Assembly: GCF_004016515.1 (NCBI RefSeq)
Contig: NZ_SACT01000001.1
Location: 930,001-994,000, forward strand
Direction of reading: 5' to 3'
Length of the DNA: 64,000 nucleotides
Origin: Rubrivivax albus
Lineage (GTDB): Bacteria; Pseudomonadota; Gammaproteobacteria; Burkholderiales; Burkholderiaceae_C
Position 1 is the first letter of the stretch. Each line of letters begins with the position of its first letter. Position numbers and translations under genes: made by a program. Below are positions 34,376 to 44,154 of this stretch, one piece after another. The notes below the pieces were generated by a model. That model did not search any database. It had not been told where the DNA came from and saw only the letters and a program-made list of their open reading frames with translations.

Positions 34376-34932
34376 GGTGCAATGCCCTTGTCGCGCAAGG
34401 CCTTGGCCAACGCATGCACGGCCCGGGAGCAGTGCGTCTTCACGCTGCCCTCCGAGCACCCCATGGCGGCGGCCGTTTCAGCCACGTCAAATTCTTCCCA
34501 ATAACGTAACAGGAAGGCCTCGCGTTGACGGCCGGGAAGATCGGCGATCGCGGCTTCGATCACGGCCATCACCTGCTGGCGCGAAACGCTGTCGGCAGCG
34601 CTTTCGGCGCCCAGCGTCCCGTCCATCGACACCAGGGCCTCGAGCAGGTCAAAGTCGCCGTCCGGACCCTCGAAATCGCCCAGGTTGACGATGGCGGCGT
34701 TGCGCACCTTCTGGCGGCGGAACCAGTCCAGCGTGGCGTTGGACAGGATGCGCTGGAAGATCAGCGGCAGTTCGGCCGCAGGGCGGTCGCCGTACTTCTC
34801 GGCCAGGCGGATCATCGCGTCCTGCACGATGTCCAGCGCCGCGTGGTCGTCGCGCACGGCGTAGGCCGTTCGCTTGAAGGCGCGCTTCTCGACGCTCTGC
34901 AGGAAGTCGGACAGTTCTTGTTCGGTGGCCAA
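34372..34932 (-). CDS. ECF (RpoE-type) RNA polymerase sigma factor
   Basis: About 186 residues from TTG 34932. Region 2 is AFKRTAYAVRDDHAALDIVQDAMIRLAEKY with the -10 recognition helix; region 4 is LPGRQREAFLLRYWEEFDVAETAAAMGCSEGSVKTHCSRAVHALAKAL with its helix-turn-helix. The TTG start is preferred because homologous proteins start at about this point (xATEQELSDFLQSVEKRAFKR); ATG 35010 and 35025 would add 26-31 residues of Arg/Pro/Cys-rich sequence. Four genes follow with overlapping stops and starts. ECF sigmas normally activate their own operon in response to envelope or other stress. Divergent from ilvB. Confidence 0.9.
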   Translation of the reverse strand: MATEQELSDFLQSVEKRAFKRTAYAVRDDHAALDIVQDAMIRLAEKYGDRPAAELPLIFQRILSNATLDWFRRQKVRNAAIVNLGDFEGPDGDFDLLEALVSMDGTLGAESAADSVSRQQVMAVIEAAIADLPGRQREAFLLRYWEEFDVAETAAAMGCSEGSVKTHCSRAVHALAKALRDKGIAP

Positions 34933-35160
34933 CGGGGCGGGGCACCGCGACGGGCACCTTGCTGGGCGACGCGTTGCATTATTGCATCGGCCCCGAAGCG
35001 GCAATGCCATAATGCTGCTTCGCACAACGCAGTATCTGGGTCTCGATCCGGTGGCCGACCCGGCGCCGGCTTTTGACCGCGCAGGCCGCGAATCCGCCTC
35101 ACGAGGGCGCGAGGAGCGGCACCGATGGTTTTTCGTCAGAGAAATTCACAGAGGTTCGAA

Positions 35161-36939
35161 ATGGACATGTCTGCCGCGGAAGTCAAGCGTGCCGCATCGG
35201 CACAACCTTCCCCCTCCTCCCCCGCCACCGATCCCAACGGGTCGGACATCCTCGTCAAGTGCCTGCAGGCCGAAGGGGTCCAGTACCTCTGGGGCTACCC
35301 GGGCGGCGCCGTCCTGTACATCTACGACGCGCTGTACAAGCAGGACACCATCCAGCACGTGCTCGTGCGCCACGAGCAGGCCGCCGTGCACGCGGCCGAC
35401 GGCTATGCCCGCGCGACGGGTGAAGTCGGCGTGGCCCTGGTCACTTCCGGCCCGGGCGTGACCAATGCCATCACCGGCATCGCCACGGCCTACATGGATT
35501 CCATCCCGATGGTGATCATCACCGGGCAGGTGCCGACGCCGGCCATCGGCCTGGACGCCTTCCAGGAATGCGACACCGTGGGCATCACGCGGCCCATCGT
35601 CAAGCACAATTTCCTGGTCAAGGACGTGCGCGACCTGGCGCTGACGATCAAGAAGGCCTTCCATATCGCCCGCACCGGCCGCCCCGGCCCGGTGGTCGTG
35701 GACATCCCGAAGGACGTGTCGCTGAAGACGGCGCCCTTCCACTACCCCGAGCGCGTGGAAATGCGCTCGTACAACCCGGTGCGCAAGGGCCACGGCGGCC
35801 AGATCCGCAAGGCCGTGCAGCTGTTGATGCACGCGCAGCGCCCGTACATCTACACCGGCGGCGGCGTCATCCTGGGCGAGGCCACGGCCGAACTGCGTGA
35901 GCTGGCCGATCTGCTGGGCTTCCCGTGCACCAACACGCTGATGGGCCTGGGCGCGATCCCCAGCAGCGACCCGAAGTTCCTGGGCATGCTGGGCATGCAC
36001 GGCACCTACGAGGCCAACATGACCATGCAGCACTGCGACGTGCTGCTGGCCGTGGGCGCGCGCTTCGACGACCGCGTGATCGGCAACCCGAAGCACTTCG
36101 CGTCGGTGGAGCGCAAGATCATCCACGTCGACATCGATCCGTCGAGCATCTCCAAGCGCGTGAAGGTGGACGTGCCCATCGTCGGCGACGTCAAGGACGT
36201 GCTGCAGGAGCTGATCGCACAGATCCGGGAAGCCCAGAGCAAGCCGGACGCGGCGCATCTGTCGGCCTGGTGGCGTCAGATCAACGACTGGCGCAAGCGC
36301 GACTGCCTGGCCTTCAAGGACAGCAGCGAGGTCATCAAGCCGCAGCGTGTGGTGCGCCTGCTGCACGAGCTCACGCGCGGCACCGACGCCTACATCACGT
36401 CGGACGTCGGCCAACACCAGATGTGGGCTGCCCAGTTCTACGGCTTCGAGGAGCCGCGGCGCTGGATCAACTCCGGCGGCCTGGGCACCATGGGCGTGGG
36501 CCTGCCGTATGCCATGGGCATCAAGCTGGCCAAGCCCGACAGCGACGTCTTCTGCATCACCGGCGAAGGCAGCATCCAGATGTGCATCCAGGAGCTGTCC
36601 ACCTGCGCGCAGTACAAGACGCCGGTGAAGATCATCAGCCTCAACAACCGCTACCTGGGCATGGTGCGCCAGTGGCAGGAACTGGACTACCAGGGCCGCT
36701 ATTCGCACAGCTACATGGATGCGCTGCCCGACTTCGTCAAGCTCGCCGAGGCCTATGGCCACGTGGGCCTGCTGGTCGAGAAGCCGTCGGACGTCGAGCC
36801 GGCGCTGAAGGAGGCCATCCGCCTGAAGGACCGCACCGTCTTCCTGGACGTGCGCACCGACCCCACCGAGAACGTCTGGCCCATGGTCCAGGCGGGCAAG
36901 GGCATCACGGAGATGCTGCTCGGCGCCGAGGACCTGTGA
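35161..36939 (+). CDS. ilvB: acetolactate synthase large (catalytic) subunit
   Basis: 592 residues, ThDP/FAD enzyme. Condenses two pyruvates to acetolactate (valine, leucine) or pyruvate plus 2-oxobutyrate (isoleucine). ThDP glutamate in LVRHEQAAVHAADGYARATG; C-terminal ThDP motif GEGSIQMCIQELSTC...NNRYLGMVRQWQE; FAD-binding region SDPKFLGMLGMHGTYEAN. AGAGG eight bases before ATG 35161 sets the start; the first 25 residues are a variable Ser/Pro/Ala-rich tail. The regulatory subunit ilvH follows after 168 structured bases, then ilvC. I see no leader peptide or attenuator upstream. Confidence 0.96.
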   Translation: MDMSAAEVKRAASAQPSPSSPATDPNGSDILVKCLQAEGVQYLWGYPGGAVLYIYDALYKQDTIQHVLVRHEQAAVHAADGYARATGEVGVALVTSGPGVTNAITGIATAYMDSIPMVIITGQVPTPAIGLDAFQECDTVGITRPIVKHNFLVKDVRDLALTIKKAFHIARTGRPGPVVVDIPKDVSLKTAPFHYPERVEMRSYNPVRKGHGGQIRKAVQLLMHAQRPYIYTGGGVILGEATAELRELADLLGFPCTNTLMGLGAIPSSDPKFLGMLGMHGTYEANMTMQHCDVLLAVGARFDDRVIGNPKHFASVERKIIHVDIDPSSISKRVKVDVPIVGDVKDVLQELIAQIREAQSKPDAAHLSAWWRQINDWRKRDCLAFKDSSEVIKPQRVVRLLHELTRGTDAYITSDVGQHQMWAAQFYGFEEPRRWINSGGLGTMGVGLPYAMGIKLAKPDSDVFCITGEGSIQMCIQELSTCAQYKTPVKIISLNNRYLGMVRQWQELDYQGRYSHSYMDALPDFVKLAEAYGHVGLLVEKPSDVEPALKEAIRLKDRTVFLDVRTDPTENVWPMVQAGKGITEMLLGAEDL

Positions 36940-37041
36940 TCGCCTGAACCCGTGCTGGGGCGAGCCGGTTACCGCCGGCCCGTGCGCAGCGCAGGGGAGG
37001 GCAGGATCAACCCCGGACCACCATCTCGCTTTCCACCCTGA

Positions 37042-37080
37042 AGGACGTGGCCAAGGGCCGCCGGTCACCGCCGGCGTCCT
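37042..37080 (+). promoter_or_regulatory. structured RNA segment upstream of ilvH
   Basis: AGGACG (37042-37047) pairs with CGTCCT (37075-37080) around an inner GC-rich region. The 15-base block CCGGTCACCGCCGGC (37061-37075) repeats, with one change, a block at 36965-36979. It lies just before the ilvH Shine-Dalgarno (AGGAG) and may affect mRNA stability or subunit ratio. Confidence 0.35.
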
Positions 37081-37082
37081 GA

Positions 37083-38660
<1,578 letters not shown>

Positions 38661-38680
38661 GCGGCGGCGCCTGGAGGCGC

Positions 38681-38686
38681 TATCCT
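38681..38686 (+). promoter_or_regulatory. -10-like hexamer for pssA
   Basis: TATCCT nine bases before ATG 38696. A GGAGG exists further upstream (about 38672) but is too far from the ATG to act as a Shine-Dalgarno. Confidence 0.3.
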
Positions 38687-38695
38687 CGCGCCCCT

Positions 38696-39523
38696 ATGAC
38701 GACGGAGTTCGAAGACTCGGGCAGCGCGGCGGAGACCCCGCCGCGCCCGCGCCGCAAGGGCATCTACTTCCTGCCCAATGCGGTGACGCTGGCGGCGCTG
38801 TTCTCCGGCTTCTACGGCGTGGTGATGGCGATGAACGGCCGCTTCGAGGCGGCCTGCATCGCCATCTTCGTCGCCGCGGTGCTGGACAGCCTGGACGGCC
38901 GCATCGCGCGCATGACGAACTCGCAGAGCGCGTTCGGCGAGCAGATGGACAGCCTGTCGGACATGGTCAGCTTCGGCGCCGCGCCGGCGCTGATCATGTA
39001 CCAGTGGGCGCTGAAGGACCTCGGCCGCCTGGGCTGGATCCCGGCCTTCGTCTACATCGCGGGCGCTGCGCTGCGGCTGGCACGCTTCAACACCAACATC
39101 GGCGTCGTCGACCGACGCTTCTTCCAGGGGCTGCCCAGCCCGGCGGCCGCCGCGATGGTGGTGGGCTTCATCTGGGTCATGGACGACGCGGGCTTCCGCA
39201 ACCTGGCCGGCGAACGCTGGCTGGTGTGGACGGCGTTCGCGGTGACGCTCTACGCCGGCATCACGATGGTGACCAACGCGCCGTTCTACAGCTTCAAGGA
39301 CCTGAGCGCGATGAAGCGCAGTGTGCCTTTCGTGGTGATGGTGGCCATCGCCATCGCGATCGTCATCGTCAGCCAGGACCCACCGAAGGCGCTGTTCACG
39401 CTGTTCTGCATCTATGGCCTGTCCGGCTACGGCGTCTACGCATGGCGCAAGTCCAAGGGCCTGCCCACCAGCGTGATCGCCACGTCCACCGACGAGCCGG
39501 ACGAGGCCGGCTTGCACCGCTGA
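38696..39523 (+). CDS. pssA: CDP-diacylglycerol-serine O-phosphatidyltransferase
   Basis: 275 residues, type II (membrane) PssA. Makes phosphatidylserine from CDP-diacylglycerol and serine. The CDP-alcohol phosphotransferase signature D-x2-DG-x2-AR-x8-G-x3-D-x3-D is complete in LDSLDGRIARMTNSQSAFGEQMDSLSD. About six to eight hydrophobic helices follow. The gene lies inside the branched-chain amino acid block between ilvC and the leuA leader, a common betaproteobacterial arrangement. The leuA leader promoter overlaps its last codons. Confidence 0.95.
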   Translation: MTTEFEDSGSAAETPPRPRRKGIYFLPNAVTLAALFSGFYGVVMAMNGRFEAACIAIFVAAVLDSLDGRIARMTNSQSAFGEQMDSLSDMVSFGAAPALIMYQWALKDLGRLGWIPAFVYIAGAALRLARFNTNIGVVDRRFFQGLPSPAAAAMVVGFIWVMDDAGFRNLAGERWLVWTAFAVTLYAGITMVTNAPFYSFKDLSAMKRSVPFVVMVAIAIAIVIVSQDPPKALFTLFCIYGLSGYGVYAWRKSKGLPTSVIATSTDEPDEAGLHR

Positions 39524-39542
39524 GGCGGCGTGCTGCTATGAT
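39512..39542 (+). promoter_or_regulatory. candidate promoter of the leuA leader
   Basis: TTGCAC (39512-39517) and TATGAT (39537-39542) with a longish 19-base spacer. Transcription would start at about 39549-39550, on the ATG of the leader peptide, which has no Shine-Dalgarno. The -35 overlaps the end of pssA. Confidence 0.45.
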
Positions 39543-39549
39543 CCGATTC

Positions 39550-39597
39550 ATGTCGATCCAGCAGACCCTGCTACTAGGCGTGCCCAAGGCGCGCTGA
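39550..39597 (+). CDS. leuA leader peptide (attenuation)
   Basis: 15 codons, [15 protein letters not shown] and a stop. Three consecutive Leu codons (39568-39576) are CTG CTA CTA; CTA is very rare in this GC-rich genome, as expected for control codons. A GC-rich hairpin with a U tract lies 29 bases after the stop, and leuA begins 48 bases beyond that. Starved of charged tRNA-Leu, a ribosome stalled at the Leu codons would let an alternative structure prevent termination. An upstream in-frame ATG at 39538 lies in the -10 box and is less likely. The leader appears to be translated from a leaderless mRNA. Confidence 0.7.
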
Positions 39598-39602
39598 TCG
39601 AC

Positions 39603-39661
39603 TTCGTCTTCCTTTCCGAAACGAACGGCCCGCCAGCACGACGCAGCGGGCCTTTTGTTTT
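39603..39661 (+). terminator. leuA attenuator
   Basis: Stem GGCCCGC (39627-39633)/GCGGGCC (39646-39652), 12-base loop, then TTTTGTTTT. An upstream pairing TTCGT (39603-39607) with ACGAA (39621-39625) abuts it and could take part in the alternative fold. Located between the leader peptide and leuA. Confidence 0.75.
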
Positions 39662-39709
39662 GCCGGAAGCCACTCCGGGCTGCGTCGGGAACCCCCGAGG
39701 AACCACGCC

Positions 39710-41404
39710 ATGCCCATGCTCCCGAACCCTGCCTCCAAGTACCGCGCCTTCGCGCCGGTGGGCCTGCGCGACCGCCGCTGGCCCGACGCGGTGCTGACCG
39801 CCGCGCCGCTGTGGTGCAGTGTCGACCTGCGCGACGGCAACCAGGCGCTGATCGAGCCGATGGACCCGGCACGCAAGCGGCGGATGTTCGAGATGCTGGT
39901 GAAGATCGGCTTCAAGGAGATCGAGGTCGGCTTCCCGTCGGCGTCGCAGGCCGACTTCGAATTCGTGCGCCAGCTGATCGAGGAGCGGCTGATCCCCGAC
40001 GACGTGACGATCCAGGTGCTCACGCAGGCGCGCGACCACCTGATCGCGCGCACCTTCGAGGCGCTGCAGGGCGTGCCGCGGGCCATCGTGCACCTCTACA
40101 ACGCCACCGCGCCGGTGATGCGCCGCGTGGTGCTGGGGCTGGACGAGGACGGCATCGTGGACCTGGCCTCGCGGCAGGCGCAGCTGGTGGCCGAGCACGC
40201 GGCGCGCCAGCCCGGGACCGACTGGACCTTCCAGTACTCGCCGGAGATGTTCTCCGGCACCGAACTCGCGTTCAGCAAGCGCGTGGTGGATGCCGTCACC
40301 GCCGTGTGGGCGCCGACGCCGGCGCGCAAGTGCATCGTCAACCTGCCGTCCACGGTGGAGCACAGCACGCCCAACGTCTTCGCCGACATGGTGGAGTGGA
40401 TGCACCGCCACCTCGAGCGACGTGACAGCATCGTGCTGTCCGTCCACCCGCACAACGACCGTGGTACCGGCACCGCCGCCGGCGAGTTCGCGCTGATGGC
40501 TGGTGCCGACCGCATCGAGGGTTGCCTGTTCGGCAACGGCGAGCGCACCGGCAACGTCGACCTCGTCAACATCGCGCTGAACCTGTACACGCAGGGCGTG
40601 CACCCGGGGCTGGACTTCTCCGACATCGACGACGTACGCCGCTGCGTGGAGCACTGCAACCAGCTTCCGGTGCATCCGCGCCATCCGTATGTGGGCGACC
40701 TCGTCTACACCTCGTTCTCCGGCTCGCACCAGGACGCGATCAAGAAGGCCTTCGCCGCGCGCCGCGAGGGCGAGTTCTGGGACATGCCCTACCTGCCCAT
40801 CGACCCGCAGGATCTGGGTCGCAGCTACGACGCGGTGATCCGCGTCAACAGCCAGTCCGGCAAGGGCGGCATCAGCTACCTGCTGGAGGTCGAGTACGGG
40901 CTGGAACTGCCGCGCCGGCTGCAGATCGAGTTCAGCCAGGTGGTGCAGGCGGTGATGGACACCGAGGGCCGCGAGATGACGGCGCCCGACCTGTGGCGCA
41001 TCTTCGCCGGCCACTACCGGCTCGACGAGGCACAGGCGCCGCGCATCCGCCACCAGCAGATGCAGGAAGCCGACGACGGCACGATGCAGGTGCAGGCCGA
41101 GGTCGAGATCGACGGCCGGCGGCTGACCATCGAGGGCCGCGGCAACGGTCCGGTCGATGCCTTCGTCGCCGGCGTGGCGTCCGCCACCGGCGTGGCGATC
41201 CGCGTGCTGGACTACCACGAGCACGCCATCGGCGAAGGCGCTGCGGCGCGCGCCGTGGCCTACCTGGAGTTGCGCGTCGGCGACAGCCGGACCCTGTTCG
41301 GCGTGGGTCTGGCCGACGGCATCGTCGCCGCGTCGATGAAGGCGGTATGGTCCGGCCTTCGCATCGCCGGCGTGGCCCTGCCGCAGGCCGCCGCGATGGC
41401 ATGA
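39710..41404 (+). CDS. leuA: 2-isopropylmalate synthase, long (type 2, yeast/actinobacterial-like) form
   Basis: 564 residues. Condenses acetyl-CoA with 2-oxoisovalerate, the first committed leucine step. The catalytic TIM barrel starts [18 protein letters not shown]; metal ligands are in [17 protein letters not shown], and the family block is [21 protein letters not shown]. The C-terminal part (about 430-564) is the LeuA allosteric dimer domain ([27 protein letters not shown]) that senses leucine. It differs clearly from the next gene, the standard bacterial type. A TGA/ATG overlap (ATGA at 41401-41404) exists with an upstream start of the second leuA. Expression is probably set by the leader attenuator in front. 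Confidence 0.93.
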
Positions 41405-41424
41405 ACATCCCAGAGGAGCACACG

Positions 41425-42978
41425 ATGACCGACAAGCTGATCATCTTCGACACCACGCTGCGCGACGGCGAACAGAGCCCCGGCGCGTCGATGACCAAGG
41501 ACGAGAAGCTGCGCATCGCGCGCCAGCTCGAGCGCCTGCGCGTGGACGTCATCGAGGCCGGCTTCGCCGCGTCGAGCAACGGCGATTTCGATGCCGTGAA
41601 GGCGATCGCCGACCACATCCGGGAGTCCACCGTCTGCTCGCTGGCGCGCGCCAACGACCGCGACATCAGCCGCGCGGCCGAGGCGCTGAAGGGCGCGCTG
41701 TCCGGGTCGGGTGGCGCGCGCATCCACACCTTCATCGCCACCAGCGAACTGCACATGGCCAAGAAGCTGCGGATGACGCGCGACCAGGTCTTCGAGCAGG
41801 CGAAGCTGGCGGTGCGCTTCGCGCGCAACCTGTGCGACGACGTGGAGTTCTCGCCCGAGGATGGCTACCGCAGCGACCCTGCGTTCCTGGCCCGCGTGCT
41901 GGAGGCCGTGATCGCCGAGGGCGCGCGCACCATCAACATCCCCGACACCGTGGGCTACGCGGTGCCGGAGCTCTTCGGCGCCTTCATCCGCGACCTGCGC
42001 CAGCGCGTGCCCAACAGCGACAAGGCGGTGTGGTCGGTGCACTGCCACAACGACCTGGGCATGGCGGTGGCCAACTCGCTGGCCGGCGTGACCATCGGTG
42101 GCGCGCGTCAGGTGGAGTGCACCATCAACGGCCTGGGCGAACGCGCCGGCAACTGCAGCCTGGAAGAGGTGGTGATGGCGGTGAAGACCCGCCGCGACTA
42201 CTTCGGCCTGGACGTGGGGATCGACACCGCGCAGATCGTGCCCGCGAGCCGCATGGTCAGCCAGACCACCGGCTTCGTCGTGCAGCCCAACAAGGCCGTG
42301 GTGGGCGCGAATGCCTTCGCGCACGCCAGCGGCATCCACCAGGACGGCGTGCTCAAGGCGCGCGACACCTACGAGATCATGCGTGCCGAGGACGTGGGCT
42401 GGAGTGCCAACAAGATCGTGCTCGGCAAGCTCAGCGGCCGCAATGCCTTCAAGCAGCGCCTGCAGGAACTGGGCATCGAGATGGAGAGCGAGGGCGAGAT
42501 CAACGCCGCCTTCGCGCGCTTCAAGGACCTGGCCGACCGCAAGGCCGAGATCTTCGACGAGGACATCATCGCGCTCGTCGGCGACGAGAGCGTCACCGCC
42601 GAGCAGGAGCACTACCGGCTGCTGGCGCTGTCGCAGCACTCCGAGACGGGCGAACGGCCGCATGCCCGCGTGGCCTTCGCGGCCGGCTCGCAGGAGCTGC
42701 GCGCCGAGAGCTATGGCAACGGACCTGTGGACGCCAGCCTGAAGGCCATCGAGTCCCAGGTGAAGTCTGGCGCCGAACTCATGCTCTATTCGGTCAATGC
42801 CATCACCAGCGGGTCCACAGAATCGCAGGGCGAGGTGACGGTGCGGCTGCAACTGGGCGGCCGGGTCGTCAACGGCGTGGGCGCGGACCCGGACATCGTG
42901 ATCGCCTCGGCCAAGGCCTATCTGTCGGCGTTGAACAAGCTGCACAGCCAGACCGACCGCGTCGCGGCACAGGGGTGA
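41425..42978 (+). CDS. leuA: 2-isopropylmalate synthase, bacterial type 1 form
   Basis: 517 residues, aligning with E. coli LeuA. Catalytic [15 protein letters not shown], metal site [33 protein letters not shown] and [12 protein letters not shown] are all intact; the leucine-binding C-terminal domain includes [16 protein letters not shown] and [20 protein letters not shown] seven bases before ATG 41425 sets this start rather than the in-frame ATG 41401. It lies directly behind the long-type leuA, so the organism carries two isozymes for one step. A 13-bp hairpin follows its stop. Confidence 0.95.
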
Positions 42979-42985
42979 GCCCGGA

Positions 42986-43015
42986 CGAGAGACAGTCCCT
43001 GCGGACTGTCTCTCG
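42986..43015 (+). terminator. long perfect hairpin after leuA
   Basis: A 13-base-pair perfect stem (42986-42998 with 43003-43015) around the loop CTGC, eight bases after the leuA stop. No U tract follows, so it may protect the 3' end or pause polymerase rather than be a classic intrinsic terminator. Confidence 0.6.
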
Positions 43016-43077
43016 CCTGCCGAACCGGCAGCATCGCGCAAGTCGTAGCCTCCACTTGAGAAACATCCCGCAAGTTC

Positions 43078-43107
43078 TTGATCTTGCAAATGTTTCTCCC
43101 GTACACT
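43078..43107 (+). promoter_or_regulatory. promoter of the PBP7-like gene
   Basis: TTGATC (43078-43083) and TACACT (43102-43107) with an 18-base spacer, 24 bases before ATG 43132. Confidence 0.5.
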
Positions 43108-43131
43108 GTTTGCCAGGTGCTGGAGGGAACG

Positions 43132-44154
43132 ATGCGGCGTTGGAATCTGTGGCTGGGGGTGTGGGCATGTGCCGTGGCGCTCGGGCTCGGGCAACCGCCG
43201 GCCGCCCAGGCCGCCAGCAGCAAGTCGTCGGCATCGGCACCGAAGTCCGCCAAGAAGTCCTCCAAGGCCAAGCCCGCACGGCAGGCCAAGAGCGGCAAGC
43301 GCAACACCTCGCGCAAGGTCGTGCGTCGGGCGCCACCGGCGCCTTCGGTGGGCCAGCTGGCCGGCCTGCGTGACACGGCCGACCCCCTGAACCTGCAGTC
43401 CAGCGTTGCCCTGGTCGTCGACCAGGACACCGACGAGGTTCTGTTCAGCAAGAACCCCGACGCCGTGCTGCCCATCGCGTCCATCACCAAGCTGATGACG
43501 GCCATGGTGGTGCTGCAGGGCGGGCAATCGCTGGACGAAGAGCTCGCGATCACCGGTGACGATGTCGACACCCTGAAGGGCAGCAGTTCGCGCCTGGCCG
43601 TGGGCACGCGGCTCAAGCGGGGTGAAATGCTTCACCTGGCGCTGATGTCGTCGGAGAACCGGGCCGCGCATGCCCTGGGGCGCCACTATCCCGGCGGCCT
43701 GGATGCCTTCGTCTCGGCCATGAACGCCAAGGCCAGCCTGCTGGGCATGCACGCCACGCACTACGTGGACCCGACGGGCCTGTCCAGCGGCAACCGTTCC
43801 AGCGCACAGGACCTGGCGATGCTGGTGCGCGCGGCCAGCGAGGTCCCGCTGATCAGCGAACTGTCCACCACGCGGGAGGCGGCGGTGGACGTCGGCCGGC
43901 GGCAACTGCAGTACCGCAATTCCAACGCCCTGGTGCGCGACCCCGAGTGGTCCATCGCGCTGCAGAAGACCGGGTACATCCGCGAGGCCGGGCGGTGCGT
44001 GGTGATGCAGGCCGAGATGGCCGGGCGCAAGCTGATCATGGTGCTGCTCGACGCCGCCGGCAGCTACACGCGTACCGCCGATGCCGAGCGCCTGCGCAGC
44101 TGGCTCGCCAGTGGTCCACTGGCCGGCAGCGGGCCGCACGCCACGGCGCGCTGA
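43132..44154 (+). CDS. pbpG: D-alanyl-D-alanine endopeptidase (PBP7/8-type)
   Basis: 340 residues. A signal peptide (about 1-25) ends near PPAAQAA, followed by a Lys/Ser/Ala-rich linker (about 26-70). The transpeptidase-type domain has the three penicillin-binding motifs: S117-ITK120, S174-E-N176 and K279-T-G281. It lacks the C-terminal extension of DacA-type carboxypeptidases, fitting the PBP7 group that cuts cross-links in peptidoglycan in the periplasm. GGAGG six bases before ATG 43132 sets the start; the longer frame from 43078 overlaps the promoter. Convergent with the IclR gene. Confidence 0.9.
   Translation: MRRWNLWLGVWACAVALGLGQPPAAQAASSKSSASAPKSAKKSSKAKPARQAKSGKRNTSRKVVRRAPPAPSVGQLAGLRDTADPLNLQSSVALVVDQDTDEVLFSKNPDAVLPIASITKLMTAMVVLQGGQSLDEELAITGDDVDTLKGSSSRLAVGTRLKRGEMLHLALMSSENRAAHALGRHYPGGLDAFVSAMNAKASLLGMHATHYVDPTGLSSGNRSSAQDLAMLVRAASEVPLISELSTTREAAVDVGRRQLQYRNSNALVRDPEWSIALQKTGYIREAGRCVVMQAEMAGRKLIMVLLDAAGSYTRTADAERLRSWLASGPLAGSGPHATAR

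Follow-up and report, generated by a model that had tools for sequence, protein, structure and literature searches.

The interval between pssA and leuA was interpreted as a ribosome-mediated transcription attenuator by which the supply of leucine would control leuA, on a leader mRNA that would start at the AUG of the leader peptide or a few bases from it (probability of about 0.88). Such a leucine attenuator would span the family, with no Rfam family matching it, and its sensor peptide is apparently translated from a leaderless mRNA. The unexpected feature, to a specialist, is a conserved partner of the terminator loop, located beyond the terminator. Positions are given in the window, i.e. the whole stretch of 64 000 nt that was analysed.

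The leuA upstream region and its conservation

The anatomy of the region was read from the sequence and from its comparison with relatives. The genes are ordered ilvB, ilvH, ilvC, pssA, leuA (564 aa) and leuA (517 aa), the ilv names being taken from a reading of the translations. pssA is on the same strand and ends at 39523, 26 nt before the leader AUG. The gap between pssA and leuA holds an extended -10 element, a 15-codon ORF, a GC-rich hairpin and a U tract (Table 1). The preliminary description had located the ORF with its CTG CTA CTA codons, the hairpin, the U tract and leuA, and all were recovered at the same positions. It had also likened the order of Leu codons, alternative pairing, terminator and leuA to classical attenuation, and this order is kept as a unit across the family. 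The window contains tandem 2-isopropylmalate synthases of different types; in relatives, the attenuator precedes one or the other.

Table 1. Features of the leuA upstream region in the window.
Feature	Position	Strand	Basis
Extended -10 promoter element TGCTATGAT	39534..39542	+	Sequence; TATGAT at 39537-39542
Leader peptide ORF (leuL), 15 codons, apparently leaderless	39550..39597	+	Sequence and comparison; stop codon at 39595-39597
Leu control codons CTG CTA CTA	39568..39576	+	Sequence
Strands 1 and 2, pause-type hairpin over the end of the ORF	39577..39595 (39577-39584 with 39588-39595)	+	Fold
Predicted antiterminator, strand 2 with strand 3, ribosome stalled at the first CTA	39588..39634	+	Fold
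Terminator hairpin, strands 3 and 4; A/U pairs extend it to 39618-39661	39627..39652	+	Fold
Terminator U tract TTTTGTTTT	39653..39661	+	Sequence
Terminator loop strand CGACGCAGC, last bases in the inner stem	39639..39647	+	Pairing analysis
Fifth strand GCTGCGTCG, complementary to the terminator loop strand	39679..39687	+	Pairing analysis
Likely leuA Shine-Dalgarno GAGGAA	39697..39702	+	Sequence
leuA, 2-isopropylmalate synthase, 564 aa	39710..41404	+	TIGR00970 leuA_yeast above cut-off
Second leuA, 517 aa	41425..42978	+	TIGR00973 leuA_bact above cut-off

A consensus promoter scan of the region reported no -35/-10 pair, as expected for an extended -10 promoter. The terminator scan reported a single site on the minus strand and not the plus-strand hairpin, apparently because the scan accepts loops of 8 nt at most and the loop of this hairpin is longer. 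The Rfam covariance search of positions 34500-43500 returned no family, with just two unrelated matches far below the gathering score. The Pfam HMMs gave 0 families for two longer leaders of relatives (L006 and L159), the window peptide being below the 20-residue minimum.

Conservation was analysed on 80 sequences, namely the window and 79 of the 80 leuA loci fetched (L074 begins inside leuA and was dropped). The closest leuA relatives include Rubrivivax, Ideonella, Ramlibacter and Variovorax, and we infer that the family searched is Burkholderiaceae as defined by GTDB. In 80/80 leuA upstream regions, a short ORF containing three or more Leu codons was found together with a hairpin of the type GGCCCG...CGGGCC, the form of the hairpin and the three Leu codons being the search criteria themselves. 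The Leu codons, whose comparison in relatives had been proposed in the preliminary description, are conserved across the family. No leader of the leuA-type layout was found in the ilvB upstream region.

A covariance model was built on 57 of the 80 sequences, omitting L006, L032, L034 and sequences more than 90% identical to one kept. It matched 363 of the 399 family genomes (E at most 0.01); the weakest of these matches are partial and correspond to ordinary terminators, so the true family count should be somewhat below 363. Secondary matches within genomes were likewise mostly partial (approximately model positions 95-140) and were ordinary GC-rich terminators. Across the order, 80 of 300 genomes were matched, strong full-length matches (E <1e-15) being restricted to 8 of the 9 own-family genomes listed and to three genomes of one genus of family f10. 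The next full-length matches (L201 and L202) were unrelated to the leucine element and were removed from the wider set. This set comprises 175 elements, near-identical ones included, of which 168 are unique by loop and downstream stretch. L118 has the leader, the hairpin and strand 5, and was left out of the leader and fifth-strand counts of the wider set.

A LeuA gene lies on the downstream side of the element in 69 of 71 loci (the window is L144), 41 being of the 564-aa type and 28 of the 517-aa type. The two types share 25-31% identity in alignments. The attenuator has thus kept its location, with one or the other LeuA type downstream of it. Given that pssA precedes the element on the same strand and that PssA is present in a flank in 63 of the 71 loci, the hairpin could be read as a mere terminator of the pssA operon, with the small ORF occurring by chance. 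However, the start codon, the Leu codons and strand 2 are conserved in 80/80 sequences, a conserved promoter separates pssA from the leader, and two loci (L198 and L199) retain the element though no PssA is found within 1.5 kb, which makes such a chance arrangement very improbable.

Leader peptide, promoter spacing and known leaders

In the wider set, a -10 element followed by a leader ORF was found in 173 of 175 elements (L162 and L171 lack them by the pattern used), a figure that is partly conditioned, as leaders were chosen by a TA...T motif 4-12 nt upstream, with TG and Leu-rich candidates preferred. At least three Leu codons are present in 173/173 leaders, Leu-rich candidates having been preferred and not required. 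Start codons are ATG in 169 and GTG in 4. CTA accounts for 382 of the 733 leader Leu codons vs 5 of 3769 in the leuA genes of the 80 loci, and 165 of the 173 leaders have two or more. As CTA is one of the two rarest Leu codons, this preference suits the need of a leucine sensor. Its rarity, already pointed out in the preliminary description, was confirmed in the window: CTA represents 9 of 1350 Leu codons in 24 ORFs of high GC3, and 0 of 198 in the six genes from ilvB to the second leuA.

The spacer between TATGAT and the leader ATG (39550) is 7 nt in the window. In the 80 sequences, a -10 element (TGnTAnnnT or near) was found 6-10 nt before the start codon in every case (80/80, with 5-11 nt allowed), the spacer being 6 nt in 10 sequences, 7 nt in 33, 8 nt in 4, 9 nt in 5 and 10 nt in 28. 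The same range was found in 173 of the 175 elements of the wider set, in which distances of 4, 5, 11 and 12 nt were allowed and never used. In 169 of 173 cases, 6-10 nt separate the end of the stricter TG.TA...T motif from the leader start; at 11-45 nt, the motif occurs once in total. In one crude test, SD-like tetramers preceded 2 of 173 leaders vs 28 of 80 leuA starts. With the -10 element ending 6-10 nt from the AUG, there is no space for a ribosome site, and the 5' end of the leader mRNA would be expected at the AUG or at most about 5 nt upstream. The promoter geometry thus supports a leaderless or near-leaderless leader mRNA, with 0 to about 5 nt before the AUG. With the 10-nt spacers (28/80), transcription may start a few nucleotides upstream, and 'leaderless' is used here for 0-5 nt. 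The preliminary description had noted the -10 element seven bases before the ATG and no Shine-Dalgarno sequence, and had proposed a leaderless mRNA; both features were seen in the window, and the 6-10 nt spacing in relatives with the scarcity of SD-like tetramers favours that proposal, widened to near-leaderless mRNAs.

Read-through from upstream genes could yield longer mRNAs. An attenuator whose leader is translated from such an mRNA, by read-through from pssA and reinitiation 26 nt past its stop codon, would fit the proximity of this same-strand neighbour and the in-frame upstream starts present in at least L002 and L031. It is nevertheless improbable in view of the distance of the extended -10 element from the leader start and the rarity of SD-like tetramers given above, and of the distance between pssA and the leader, which differs among relatives (by eye, among the loci listed).

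The enterobacterial leu operon attenuator (Rfam Leu_leader) has a Leu-rich leader peptide with rare Leu codons. The element described here shares with it a Leu-rich leader, the opposition of antiterminator and terminator, and a leucine gene downstream; it differs by having no Rfam match (E up to 5), by being apparently leaderless and by its fifth strand.

Leaderless leader peptides are known from Sinorhizobium and Actinobacteria, and the leaderless point is only partly new. In S. meliloti, the trpL/rnTrpL transcript is reported to begin with the ATG of the leader ORF and its attenuator precedes a biosynthetic gene, as here, but it senses tryptophan and not leucine and belongs to an alphaproteobacterium (PMC7298713). 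The likeness to Sinorhizobium trpL drawn in the preliminary description was apt, and such peptides have likewise been described in Streptomyces, for leuA itself. In S. lividans, leuL1, leuL2, trpL1 and ilvL are described as leaderless leader peptides, two of them Leu-dependent and one located before leuA; leuL1 differs from our element by having no typical Rho-independent terminator, and the likeness drawn here is one of description (PMC8079986). In another actinobacterial system, an ilvBNC leader peptide without ribosome binding site and a Leu leader before leuA are reported, the host being an Actinobacterium and the likeness again one of description (PMC4046766). The LEU element of Actinobacteria also has a leader peptide and a pseudoknot upstream of leuA; its Leu codons are reported to pair with the SD of leuA, and its authors find other attenuator elements missing, whereas the putative pseudoknot considered below would sit on the terminator loop (PMC1262725). 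No report of a leuA leader peptide in Betaproteobacteria was found in searches of open-licence PMC papers.

Leaderless mRNAs are known from other members of the group. In B. cenocepacia, 72 genes have a primary start exactly at the annotated start, and the leaderless tally given is 72 + 42 with at most 10 nt, 24 of these being tRNAs (PMC4603805). In C. metallidurans, 4.67% of primary starts are listed with less than 5 nt (PMC7563307). The terms 'leader peptide' and 'attenuat' are absent from the main text of both papers.

trpE has a comparable layout in its upstream region. In the genome of the window (L249), the leader is MFIARVLSNGSHDRGAWPWRRWHLSA and its ATG lies 7 nt after TACACT. A match was obtained in 39 of 40 family genomes and 30 trpE loci were fetched (L249-L278); the Trp leader starts 6-10 nt after a TA...T -10 element in 28 of these 30, the exceptions being L251 and L272, and most of the peptides contain DRGAWPWR. 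trpL of the same family therefore also looks leaderless, as judged from promoter and start codon. With trpL sharing the layout, leaderless initiation on attenuator peptides becomes a testable general design and not an oddity. In L202, from another family of the order, an aromatic leader MILFACFGYHFWFSHRIGGGEASA was noticed at approximately 1500-1650, 7 nt after TACAGT and followed by a hairpin and a T run; the gene behind it is probably a DAHP synthase, as read from its translation.

Alternative folds of the leader RNA

The 116-nt leader of the window folds at -51.8 kcal/mol (z -4.8), and 0 of 200 shuffles were equally stable. The two alternative states were obtained by folding only. The 80 sequences were folded with a stalled ribosome holding the first CTA in its A site and protecting 9 nt downstream, or with the ribosome at the stop codon. 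When the RNA was made up to strand 3, strand 3 paired upstream (P >0.5) in 79/80 sequences with the ribosome stalled vs 3/80 with the ribosome at the stop codon; in the window, the corresponding probabilities were 0.77 and 0.30. When the RNA was made up to the loop and the ribosome was stalled, strand 3 paired upstream in 80/80. With the ribosome at the stop codon, the full terminator formed in 80/80. The complete hairpin was also favoured at equilibrium with the ribosome stalled (P >0.5 in 77/80), so antitermination would have to be kinetic, through a putative co-transcriptional trapping of strand 3. The stalled fold of the window (39583-39641) has -17.8 kcal/mol and z -1.8, with 10 of 200 shuffles as stable, and is unexceptional alone.

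These folds suggest the following course of events, in which the start site, the stalling of the ribosome, termination and the response to leucine are deduced from the anatomy of the element. RNA polymerase would start at about 39550 and a ribosome would load straight onto the 5' AUG. When leucyl-tRNA is plentiful, the ribosome would reach the stop codon and cover strand 2, and the hairpin of strands 3 and 4 with its U tract would terminate transcription. When tRNA-Leu is uncharged, chiefly the one reading CTA, the ribosome would stall at codons 7-9, leaving strand 2 free to pair with strand 3 as an antiterminator, and leuA would be transcribed. In the read-through mRNA, a further conserved strand may then pair with the loop of the terminator, a pseudoknot being the simplest form of this pairing.

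A fifth strand beyond the terminator

The preliminary description had ended its account at the terminator and did not mention this strand. In the window, GCTGCGTCG lies past the U tract and is complementary to the terminator loop strand CGACGCAGC. A contiguous helix of at least 7 bp between loop and strand 5 was found in 136 of 168 unique elements, and one of at least 8 bp in 120 of 168, with 58 distinct helix sequences among the unique elements. The strand is not universal, 32 of the 168 having no helix of at least 7 bp. When compared with shuffles of its own downstream region, the helix had p <0.05 in 129 of the 168 elements and not in the other 39. In 15929 of 20418 swaps between elements with different loops, the element's own partner was the better one. 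This contiguous-helix test supersedes an earlier test on duplex energies, in which own partners were better than swapped ones in 4587 of 6304 cases, with a mean z of -1.9 against shuffles and 40/80 sequences below -2.

Pairing in the 9-bp register was counted on an alignment of 171 sequences built without regard to structure, and 1207 of 1465 cells were paired. When the columns were evolved independently along the tree, 851 cells were paired (sd 91, maximum 1079 in 500 trials), and sliding the register by 1-4 positions gave at most 750. Across the nine pairs, a total of 17 branch changes swap both partners yet keep the pairing. In the per-pair covariation test with a tree-based null, two pairs between loop and strand 5 ranked first and second with E of approximately 1.0 and 1.6, no single pair being significant, and the case for strand 5 thus rests on the helix as a whole. 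The rest of the top 45 covarying pairs mostly reflected subgroup differences within the leader. No description of this pairing was found in the open-licence PMC papers searched.

The five same-genus genomes fetched (L237, L242, L243, L245 and L247) all carry strand 5, with helices of 7-10 bp. The helix reaches the GGGCC arm of the terminator in 104 of the 143 elements with a helix of at least 7 bp, and extends 0 bp into the arm in 94 of these 104; the innermost base or two of the stem may be part of the helix. A strand opening the terminator should extend into the stem and a strand docking on the loop should halt there, so this boundary favours docking. The geometry fits an H-type pseudoknot, with a median of 6 loop nt before the helix and a median linker of 14 nt. 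In 68 loci, strand 5 ends a median of 27.5 nt before leuA. From these features it was tentatively proposed that, after read-through, the 7-13 nt beyond the U tract pair with the terminator loop up to its stem and form, just upstream of the leuA ribosome site, either a coaxial pseudoknot of the H type or a site where released leader RNA could land; this is a real possibility, at less than even odds. Between the two forms, a pseudoknot on the read-through mRNA appears the most likely from the sequences, ahead of pairing in trans.

The fifth strand could also open the terminator and be part of the antitermination switch itself (strands 2:3 and 4:5 vs 3:4). Nested folds including strand 5 were computed for 68 loci. 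The terminator had P <0.5 in the stalled fold in 9/68 loci with strand 5 vs 2/68 without it, as such a switch would predict; but it survived most of these folds, with a mean P of 0.86 when the ribosome was stalled (0.99 in the window) and 0.98 when it was at the stop codon. Strand 5 is moreover transcribed only after the U tract, and its helix mostly stops at the GGGCC arm. A role in opening the terminator is therefore unlikely. In the nested fold of the window terminator with strand 5, z was -0.34, 76 of 200 shuffles were as stable, and the 4:5 pairing did not form. This result fits a predicted pseudoknot, a structure that the folding program cannot show.

Once released, the terminated leader RNA could use its exposed loop to pair in trans with strand 5 of the leuA mRNA. 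Such an action would have a precedent in rnTrpL of Sinorhizobium, which is reported to act in trans (PMC7298713). Most of the loop is unpaired in the folded terminator, and strand 5 ends close to leuA, at the median distance given above, both being compatible with trans pairing; however, the leuA mRNA carries its own loop in cis, which makes this mode of action doubtful. If the pairing is real, the pseudoknot or landing site would add to classical attenuation a second, post-termination layer built on the terminator itself. It would also raise the question of why a terminator loop is kept complementary to an RNA that is made only once the terminator has failed.

A possible small hairpin, TCGGG-AACC-CCCGA (39685-39698), seen in the window sequence alone, overlaps the fifth strand and the likely leuA SD (to 39702). 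The loci without a fifth strand include L150, L153, L156-L158, L163, L165, L167 and L168, and L032 and L034 have no good strand 5. In six of them (L150, L153, L156, L158, L163 and L167), the terminator loops are slightly longer, with 17-18 nt vs 16 nt in the window when measured in the same way.
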